Shown: piece after piece, positions 33,670 through 35,860 of the stretch
Layout of the letters: every line of letters begins with the position of its first letter
Numbering within the stretch: the stretch's first letter is position 1
Source: Oscillospiraceae bacterium
GTDB lineage: Bacteria > Bacillota > Clostridia > Oscillospirales > Ruminococcaceae
Direction: 5' to 3'
Length of the DNA: 64,000 nt
Assembly (NCBI GenBank): GCA_902363145.1
Contig: CABIZB010000007.1
Location: 1-64,000 of the forward strand
Made by a program: the position numbers and the translations under genes
Notes under the pieces: generated by a model
What the model was told of the DNA's origin: nothing
Seen by the model: only the letters and a program-made list of their open reading frames with translations
The model's database searches: none

Positions 33670-33806
33670 ATCAGCGTACAACATTTGTACAACAATATGC
33701 TGCATTTTACGGTTTGGGTGTTATCATTTCAATAGCTTATCATCTGCAATATACCCGCCCAATGCTGTATCTGATAATTGTAATATCGTCTCTTGCCGCT
33801 TATTGG

Positions 33807-33835
33807 TTGAAATCTCAGAACAGGCATAGTATAAT
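33807..33835 (+). promoter_or_regulatory. Promoter of the efflux-gene leader
   Basis: TTGAAA (33807-33812), 17-base spacer, TATAAT (33830-33835), followed by the leader-peptide ribosome-binding site at 33851-33858. Confidence 0.85.
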
Positions 33836-33864
33836 AAATGTAACCATATAAAGGGGGGATAACA

Positions 33865-33903
33865 ATGATGCTTTGTATTTACACAGCTCCATGCAAGGAA
33901 TGA
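33865..33903 (+). CDS. Leader peptide of the efflux gene (12 residues)
   Basis: The short frame MMLCIYTAPCKE ends in TGA and has an exceptionally strong ribosome-binding site, AAAGGGGGG, 6 bases before its first ATG. It begins about 23 bases after the expected transcription start, and its last codons overlap the 5' arm of two alternative hairpins upstream of the MFS gene. This is the layout of drug-inducible attenuators such as those of erm and mef genes. The peptide itself matches none that I know. Confidence 0.65.
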   Translation: MMLCIYTAPCKE

Positions 33904-33975
33904 CGAATTGCATGGAGGAATGATCCGCCGTCATGCCTTGCATCTGACTGAAATAAATCAGAAAAAGGAGCAAGG
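33887..33975 (+). promoter_or_regulatory. Attenuator: mutually exclusive hairpins before the MFS gene
   Basis: Segment 33887-33896 (CTCCATGCAA) pairs perfectly with 33908-33917 (TTGCATGGAG). The overlapping segment 33891-33905 can instead pair with 33929-33943 at 14 of 15 positions. If the first hairpin forms, CCTTGC (33936-33941) is free to pair with GCAAGG (33970-33975), which overlaps the end of the MFS ribosome-binding site AAGGAG. Ribosome position on the leader peptide should decide among these folds. Confidence 0.65.
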
Positions 33976-33979
33976 TAAT

Positions 33980-35248
33980 ATGAAAACCTTAAAGGAACTT
34001 AAAAATTTTATAATTCTCTGGCTCACTCAGTCGTTTTCGGCGCTGGGAAGCTCTATGACAAGCTTTGCGCTTGTGATATGGCTTTACAGCGACAGCGGTT
34101 CGGCGCTGACCACCTCGCTGCTGACGGTATGCTCATATGCGCCGTATGTTTTGATGAGCATTTTTGCAGGTGCGGTAAGCGACAAATGGAACAAGAAAGC
34201 GATCATGCTTATCTGCGACAGCTTTGCTGCGGTCTGCACTGTCATAACTCTTATACTGCTGAAAACGGACAGCCTTGCCGTATGGCACCTGTACATTCTC
34301 AACGCCCTGAACGGCTTGATGAATTCGATCCAATCGCCTGCTTCGGACGTGGCTGTCACGCTGCTCACACCCGAAAAGCATTATCAGAAAACAAGCGGTA
34401 TGCGCTCATTTTCAAACTCGCTTGTGTCCATTCTTACGCCTGTTCTGGCAGCTGCTGTGATGTCGTTTGCAGGAATTGAAGCTGTCATTGCCTTTGACCT
34501 TATCACCTTCGCCGCAGCATTTCTTGTCCTGATGTTTTTTATCAGAATACCGCATGTCGCCCGGGACTCCGACAGCAAGGAAACGATTTTGCAGTCGGCA
34601 AAAAGCGGACTTTCCTATTTGAAAGGAAATCAGGGTATCCTCTGGCTTATCCTGTTTTTATCGGCGATCAACCTGATAGCATCAATGTACAGTGCGGCAC
34701 TTCCTGCGCTTATTATTTCAAAAGCAGGCGAGACGGCATACGGTATCGTAAACAGCTGTGTCGGCGTGGCAACACTTCTCGGAAGCGTTGCGGCAACCGT
34801 ATTTCCAAAGCCAAAGAGCAGGATCAATGTTATCTGCAACTGCCTGCTCATCTCCATGAGCACGGAAAATTTCCTGCTTGCTTTCGGAGATAACACCGTC
34901 ATATGGTGTATCGGTGCATTTCTCGGCTGGGGCATTATCCCGCTGATGAGCGCAAATTATGACGTTATTTTCAGGAGCAACGTGCCTAAGCAAATGCAGG
35001 GGCGGGTCTATTCTGTCAGAAATACTCTGCAGTTTTTCACCATTCCCGTCGGTTATTTCCTTGGCGGCTTTCTGGTGGATAATGTCTTTGAGCCGCTTAT
35101 GGAAAATACGCAAAGCGGCTTGCTCAAAGGCATTTTCGGCAGTGGAAAAGGCTCGGGTGCGGCAATGCTGTTTTTCTTTATGGCTGTATCGGGTGTTATT
35201 GTTTGCCTGATTTTCCGCAGGATAAAGGCACTGAGGGAGCTTGAATAA
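33980..35248 (+). CDS. MFS efflux transporter (macrolide-efflux-like)
   Basis: The 422-residue protein has about 12 membrane helices and resembles MefA/MdtG-type drug-proton antiporters: FALVIWLYSDSGSALTTSLL in the first two helices, then the loop motif AGAVSDKWNKKAIML (motif A, G-x-x-x-D-x-x-x-K/R), and a central cytoplasmic loop near residue 190. It should export a drug from the cytoplasm; the substrate is unknown. The start at 33980 has AAGGAG 9 bases upstream; in-frame starts at 33920 and earlier lie inside the attenuator. A ruined AraC/GyrI regulator follows. Confidence 0.88.
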   Translation: MKTLKELKNFIILWLTQSFSALGSSMTSFALVIWLYSDSGSALTTSLLTVCSYAPYVLMSIFAGAVSDKWNKKAIMLICDSFAAVCTVITLILLKTDSLAVWHLYILNALNGLMNSIQSPASDVAVTLLTPEKHYQKTSGMRSFSNSLVSILTPVLAAAVMSFAGIEAVIAFDLITFAAAFLVLMFFIRIPHVARDSDSKETILQSAKSGLSYLKGNQGILWLILFLSAINLIASMYSAALPALIISKAGETAYGIVNSCVGVATLLGSVAATVFPKPKSRINVICNCLLISMSTENFLLAFGDNTVIWCIGAFLGWGIIPLMSANYDVIFRSNVPKQMQGRVYSVRNTLQFFTIPVGYFLGGFLVDNVFEPLMENTQSGLLKGIFGSGKGSGAAMLFFFMAVSGVIVCLIFRRIKALRELE

Positions 35249-35345: not shown

Positions 35346-35860
35346 ATGAACATATGGGAAGGGATACAGAATGCCATAAGGTACATCGAGGACAACCTTA
35401 CCGAGGAGCTTGACATTGCCGATATCGCCGCAAAGGCGAATTTCAGCGGATATTTTCCGTGCTGTGCGGCTTTACGCTGGGAGAATATATCCGCAGCCGC
35501 AGGCTCAGTATGGAAGGCTCCTACAGTGAGATACCGAAGTTCTGGCAGGAGCATATGTCGGACAGCGGCATTGTCATCGGTATGTACGGCATCTGCCTTG
35601 ACAGCGATTTGAAGCATTTCGACTATCTCATTGCAGATAACTATGACCCCCGGCAGGAAGTCCCCGAGGGATACGAGACAAAGCAGATACCCGCACCCAA
35701 GGCACTCCGGGACGTGAACACAAGGATATGGAACGAATGGCTCCCCAACTGCACCGAGTACAGGCTGGGCGGCAATTACGACATTGAAATGTACACCGCT
35801 CCCACGGAAGACCCTGCCAAGACCTACAGCGAAATATGGATACCTGTTGTTAAGGCATAA
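35346..35860 (+). pseudogene. AraC/GyrI-type effector-binding regulator, frameshifted and deleted
   Basis: The first ~37 codons (MNIWEGIQNAIRYIEDNLTE) encode the start of an AraC helix-turn-helix domain. The continuation, FTLGEYIRSRRLS, is in another frame from about 35459 with the AFHFQR segment missing. The next residues jump to the C-terminal half of a GyrI-like effector-binding domain (EGSYSEIPKFWQEH to IWIPVV), skipping about 100 residues. Intact family members are about 290 residues. It cannot be functional as written. It follows the MFS gene, whose regulator it may once have been. Confidence 0.8.

Follow-up and report, generated by a model that had tools for sequence, protein, structure and literature searches.

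The window analysed here, a stretch of 64,000 nt read on the forward strand, carries a series of regulatory features ahead of a gene for an MFS efflux pump of 422 aa (33980..35248, +; ATG at 33980). The series begins with a sigma-70 type promoter (33807..33835, +) that agrees with the consensus at 11 of 12 positions, its -35 element TTGAAA (33807-33812) and its TATAAT box (33830-33835) being separated by a 17-nt spacer. A leader ribosome-binding site (RBS), AAAGGGGGGA, lies downstream (33850..33859, +; sequence rechecked by script) and is followed by a 12-codon leader ORF, MMLCIYTAPCKE, that ends in TGA (33865..33903, +). Several segments that can pair with one another span the end of this ORF and the region up to the pump. 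Segment A, GCTCCATGCA (33886..33895, +), and segment B, TTGCATGGAG (33908..33917, +), form the 5' and 3' arms of a hairpin, A:B. Segment C, CGTCATGCCTTGCAT (33929..33943, +), is an anti-RBS strand that can pair either with segment D, GGAGCAAGGT (33967..33976, +), which is the RBS of the pump, or with A' (33893..33905, +), a predicted switch strand that comprises codons 10-12, the stop codon and the next bases. Segments A, B, C and D are each indicated by folding, by a swap test of pairing partners and by covariation; C is additionally indicated by folding with forbidden pairs, as is A', for which the swap test and folding with a ribosome footprint also speak. Segment A further contains GCTCC, the complement of a GGAGC at the pump RBS.

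The pump matches TIGR00900 at 175 bits and also matches PF07690, and it reaches 79-113 bits against the NCBIfam models for Mef(B), Mef(C), Mef(A) and Mef(En2), whose curated cut-offs are 675-870. Judged from these matches, it is related to the Mef macrolide efflux proteins and is not a member of that group. Just 3' of the pump, a short ORF (35346-35612) is overlapped in another frame by an ORF with Cass2/GyrI-like domains (35459-35860), and the region 35346-35860 may represent one broken AraC/GyrI-like gene.

A first-pass annotation of this DNA had placed the promoter, the 12-codon leader with its RBS and the pump RBS at these positions, and direct reading together with a script recheck found the coordinates exact. 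It had also noted that the end of the leader can pair either with 33908-33917 or with 33929-33943, and that 33936-33941 is complementary to 33970-33975 at the pump RBS; by script, both complementarities are exact, with 14 of 15 positions matching between 33891-33905 and 33929-33943, and with GCAAGG (33970-33975, beside GGAG at 33967-33970) matching CCTTGC (33936-33941). Folding of the RNA from 33842 to 33990 gives -42.6 kcal/mol, compared with a mean of -28.7 kcal/mol for dinucleotide shuffles (sd 3.45; z -4.0), and none of 200 shuffles was as stable. A scan of the window, as distinct from its relatives, found no terminator-like site between leader and pump (33842-33980). Rfam 15 contained no family matching the element; two tRNAs were the window's only matches at gathering score, and a search of 33780-34010 returned three chance-level matches far below gathering. 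A likeness of the leader start to tet-type leaders found no support, blastn of 33842-33985 giving only E>=1 against plasmids and E>=2 against phages among the matches listed. A literature search of titles and abstract openings, mostly outside subscription journals, returned known attenuators only, none of them describing this leader.

A search of genome contigs with the pump retrieved 15 loci, from metagenome-assembled genomes labelled Ruminococcus, Oscillospiraceae, Lachnospiraceae, Clostridiales and Bacillota. The leader and the pairing segments are present at all 15 and lie at the same distance from the pump at 14; the remaining one (L014) also has the leader and segments A to D, but its B-C and C-D spacers are longer by about 100 and about 140 bases, respectively. 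Because the pump relatives all carry leader and pairing segments, the element is more than a chance arrangement, and the idea thereby passed the test that the first-pass annotation had set for it, namely whether the short frame and the pairing are conserved at homologous loci. A covariance model built from 15 sequences (R1) matched all 10 genomes or records behind the selected loci, 23 of 391 genomes from the class of G006 and 53 of 347 from the family of G001. A second model from 80 sequences (R2) matched 48 of 299 genomes from the family of G006 and 10 of 348 from the phylum; the genome samples overlap, and the low-scoring R2 matches include a second class of loci and at least one false positive (L145, 39 bits), which is a terminator hairpin rather than the element. 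Weak matches at L020, L029 and L030 are doubtful. Genome G631 holds three R1 matches, of which L084 and L099 precede MFS genes; the third (L103), weak at 33.7 bits and situated before a methyltransferase-domain gene, is without a 12-codon leader and counts as false or doubtful. From the 91 R1 loci, L104, L028, L103, L098 and the duplicates L053, L054 and L055 were dropped before anchoring, and L097 before the swap test; in the leader alignment L135 had no anchor, and L150 and L151 were excluded from the leader set.

Across 120 aligned leaders of the main class (class I), the consensus reads M-x-L-C-I-A-x-A-P-C-K-V-stop. The start codon lies exactly seven codons before codon 8 in 100 of them, and in 93 of these 100 the stop falls at codon 13. 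Residue counts per 100 leaders are 83 for L3, 62 for C4, 73 for I5, 40 for A6, 89 for A8, 93 for P9 and 95 for C10, and a purine-rich motif resembling a Shine-Dalgarno (SD) sequence occurs within 16 nt upstream in 96 of 100 aligned leaders. At codons 2-6, none of 500 column shuffles reaches the observed amino-acid identity (n=120); at codon 7, 20 of 500 do. This control leaves the relatedness of the sequences in place. Conservation of codons 8-12 says little about the peptide, because these codons lie in the RNA stem. In the remaining 20 leaders the start codon is mostly shifted, and many keep the distance from L-C-I to the stem (e.g., MLCIATAPCRV), which indicates that what is kept is the position of the motif relative to the hairpin and not the length of the chain. 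The conserved frame, start, stop, SD-like motif and peptide conservation together point to a translated short leader ORF upstream of the pump. At one locus (L086:629-783, +), the stem lies in a shifted frame relative to the leader, MKIARGLLCARF.

The pairings were examined by covariation and by exchanging partners between elements. In an alignment of 80 sequences, itself fitted to the A:B/C:D structure, 97.0% of the cells of A:B and C:D are paired and both-sided changes occur at 12 of 17 pairs, a result matched by none of 500 shuffles. In the swap test, the duplex energy of native partners was compared with the median for partners taken from dissimilar elements (threshold 0.75; 83 elements). 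Native partners were better for A:B in 32 of 32 testable elements (-15.6 vs -8.1 kcal/mol) and for C:D in 77 of 83 (-10.2 vs -4.6 kcal/mol). The same holds in 82 of 83 for A' plus the post-stop bases with the whole of C (-23.6 vs -15.3 kcal/mol) and in all 83 for the stop codon and post-stop bases with the bases before C (-9.8 vs -6.2 kcal/mol); codons 10-12 with the C core alone, better in only 50 of 83, are not separately supported. Among the controls, B:C gave -3.63 vs -3.81 kcal/mol (native better in 30 of 76), B with the bases before C -4.9 vs -4.4 kcal/mol (57 of 83), and the post-stop bases with D -2.5 vs -2.0 kcal/mol (62 of 83). It follows from the swap results that the 3' end of the leader and the bases after it are a real partner of C, and that a B:C pairing of the erm(C) kind is unsupported.

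To model a ribosome on the leader, an unpaired stretch of 30 nt was placed along it and the cost of opening the pump RBS was computed for the 83 elements. The mean cost is 7.2 kcal/mol without a ribosome, falls to 2.5, 2.6 and 2.7 kcal/mol with the leading edge at nt 26, 27 and 28, and is 6.2 kcal/mol at nt 30 and about 10 kcal/mol at nt 36-40. RBS accessibility peaks at edge 26 or 28 in 69 of the 83 elements; three (L063, L067, L091) gain 0.5 kcal/mol or less, and two of the 83 lose. Forbidding A:C raises the cost at nt 27 to 9.8 kcal/mol, with a rise of more than 1 kcal/mol in 80 of 83 elements, whereas with B:C forbidden it stays at 2.6 kcal/mol and rises in only four. The window follows the same course in opening cost (9.8 kcal/mol without a ribosome, 3.3 at nt 27 and 10.9 at nt 36). 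Folding with and without a ribosome footprint had been proposed in the first-pass annotation. One result speaks against opening in the window itself: its equilibrium RBS accessibility is flat at edge 26-28 (0.11-0.12 vs 0.11 without a ribosome) and peaks at 0.26-0.33 when the ribosome sits close to the start codon (edge 4-10). Since C:D stays favoured in the window by about 3.3 kcal/mol, opening there would have to be kinetic. In toeprinting practice, about 15 nt separate the first P-site base from the leading edge. With this reach, an edge at 26-28 would put the P site on codon 4 or 5, and a shorter reach would put it on codon 6. When eight elements were folded singly, the ribosome-free minimum of three contained the pair between the GCTCC of A and the RBS together with A:C. 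Covariation, the swap test and footprint folding thus agree on a sequestered pump RBS and a mutually exclusive alternative pairing.

We consider it quite probable that the element is a ribosome-stalling translational attenuator of the pump, predicted to work like an erm attenuator with another topology and another peptide. Without drug, the leader would be translated and released, A would pair with B and C with D, and the pump RBS would be shut; in an alternative shut state, the GCTCC of A would pair directly with the pump RBS. A ribosome stalled early in the leader, with its P site at about codon 5 and a nascent chain of M-x-L-C-I, would cover the 5' part of A, breaking A:B and masking the anti-RBS GCTCC. 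Codons 10-12, the stop codon and the following bases would stay free to pair with C, so that D would be released and the pump made. A ribosome further along, or one terminating at the stop codon, would cover A' and the RBS would stay shut. Stalling on the leader is what we infer from this arrangement; an antibiotic acting on the 50S subunit would be its likely cause, and the pump would presumably export the stalling drug.

The logic of erm and mef attenuators, which the first-pass annotation had seen in this locus, holds insofar as a conserved leader and competing pairings hide the RBS of a Mef-related pump, and fails for the specific features of either system. The erm(C) switch is a 2:3 pairing, unlike the 1:3 switch predicted here, and peptide and gene are different as well. 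Common to both are a leader ORF, an RBS hidden in a hairpin and an alternative structure, which in erm(C) exposes the RBS upon stalling, as described in PMC5418344 and PMC5118997. A classic ermC-type attenuator, with hairpins 1:2 and 3:4 and a stall at 1 that frees 2 to pair with 3 and so releases 4, would agree with the two hairpins that exist and covary here; its 2:3 pairing corresponds to B:C, however, which is no stronger than its swapped counterpart and can be forbidden without effect on the predicted opening, making this a very unlikely explanation. Attenuators of the cat and cmlA type have a single RBS hairpin that is opened by a stalled ribosome, unlike the four segments found here. 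According to PMC5418344, leader control of these chloramphenicol acetyltransferase or exporter genes acts at the level of translation, a feature that the element would share with such phenicol attenuators, and CatA-like genes follow 6 of 125 elements. For mef(A/E)-mel and msr(D), transcriptional attenuation via a Rho-independent terminator is described, with MTASMRLR as the mef leader (PMC4335068), and MsrDL (MYLIFM) is reported to need L3 and I4 for erythromycin sensing and to stall with codon 6 in the P site (PMC10314930). The short leader before a Mef-type pump and the resemblance of M-x-L-C-I to MsrDL recall these systems; unlike them, the element shows no terminator between 33842 and 33980 in the window, and its peptide differs, neither MTASMRLR nor MYLIFM being found in the window (MMLCIYTAPCKE) or among the 120 aligned leaders. 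Of the features defining erm(C) and mef attenuators that were tested, the element shows none; as far as sequence can tell, it fits the general kind of a ribosome-mediated translational attenuator.

Stalling might also be brought about without a drug-dependent arrest peptide. If the leader sensed amino-acid starvation, the ribosome would halt at scarce Cys codons, and Cys is indeed found at codon 4 in 62 and at codon 10 in 95 of 100 leaders. Codon 10 lies within the stem, however, 38 of 100 leaders have another residue at codon 4, and a ribosome with codon 4 in the A site would have its edge at about nt 22, where opening still costs 5.2 kcal/mol; moreover, the genes that follow encode pumps and a CatA-like enzyme and are not cysteine genes, and we regard this as the least probable of the alternatives. 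Somewhat more credible, while still improbable, is a general sensor of slow early elongation, in which any slowing near the leader start would open the RBS without a specific arrest peptide. Opening needs only a correctly placed ribosome, and the high equilibrium accessibility of the window at edges 4-10 is what such a sensor would lead one to expect; on the other hand, residues 2-6 are conserved as peptide, the distance from L-C-I to the stem is often kept when the start moves, and the 83-element mean opens cheaply only at edges 26-28.

With respect to the inducer, a macrolide is suggested by the Mef-group pump and by the likeness of M-x-L-C-I to MsrDL, and a phenicol by the CatA-like genes and by the preference of chloramphenicol and linezolid for Ala, and less for Ser or Thr, in the penultimate position (PMC8987054). 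In the leaders, however, the residue just before a P site at codon 5 is mostly Cys (62 of 100), followed by Ala (10), Ile (10), Met (6), Gly (4), Thr (2) and Ser (1). By these analogies, neither drug class would be preferred over the other.

The genes that follow 125 class-I loci (tblastn) comprise 112 MFS genes, six CatA-like genes, one MATE pump (L086; TIGR00797), one esterase-like gene (L139) and five cases with none recognised, of which L073 and L154 show remnants resembling MFS fragments or degraded genes and L138 is cut by the contig end. At L139 (1642-1793, -), the leader MKFCIVVTPCKVK precedes an esterase-like protein of 259 aa that weakly matches models of S-formylglutathione hydrolase. 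Scans of five of the six CatA-like proteins gave 202-214 bits against the CatA model (cut-off 270), and the protein at L090 matches solved chloramphenicol acetyltransferases. CatA-like genes do not carry the switch in general: of 39 matches in 291 genomes, 32 were checked (29 new loci, L163, L167 and G281:C20, which is L051) and seven left out, and the element was present in only three (L167, L182, L051). It was absent from all six genes over the CatA cut-off, one of which (L170) gives a weak match of 18.6 bits, and from L164-L166. Opening cost in the CatA-type elements is lowest at edge 25-28 in four of six; L049 has two roughly equal low points, at 28 and 32, and L090 gains next to nothing (3.9 to 3.0 kcal/mol at 22-23). 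A separate stall window for this type was not borne out by the opening costs of the six.

The second class comprises 13 loci among the low-scoring R2 matches (L142, L143, L144, L146-L149, L152, L156, L157, L159-L161) that have a CD3324-family gene downstream, an assignment checked with the N-terminal 60 residues of two proteins against NF040785. In segments A, B and C they are similar to class I, but a short ORF reads A in another frame, running from ..LHA[KE]xV/P.. to a CME-stop at the end of B in 7 of 11 loci examined (L160 and L161 were left out). This reading in a different frame speaks for a function of the segments at the RNA level, and the two classes possibly form a larger family. It seems to us an evenly balanced proposition that all of these loci represent a large, so far unnamed family of ribosome-stall sensors from Clostridia of gut and rumen. 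Its switch strand would be the 3' end of the leader, including the stop codon (1:3), and it would serve as a module before pumps, a CatA-like enzyme, other genes and, in another frame, CD3324-family genes. Related elements occur in many gut bacteria, ahead of pumps and of a few further genes, so that the switch may be a common antibiotic sensor. If so, commensal Clostridia would possess a widespread inducible switch for resistance whose arrest peptide is new and whose topology differs from that of erm(C), and inducible control of this kind would escape screens that read resistance genes only. The predicted stall site is sufficiently narrow for direct toeprinting, and the inducing drug would point to the substrate of the associated uncharacterised pumps.

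The pump query found no relative among viral contigs, and a DNA pattern located an element (leader MFRATAEAPCKV) with the start of an MFS gene on an IMG/VR contig (L162:1139-1295, -), in a neighbourhood of phage-like genes and a recombinase-like ORF; this is perhaps the host flank of a prophage. A diverged element of 44 bits (L098:635-791, +), with the leader MRLAIVKALYKVI, stands before a gene for a 185-aa protein that matches neither Pfam nor NCBIfam models.
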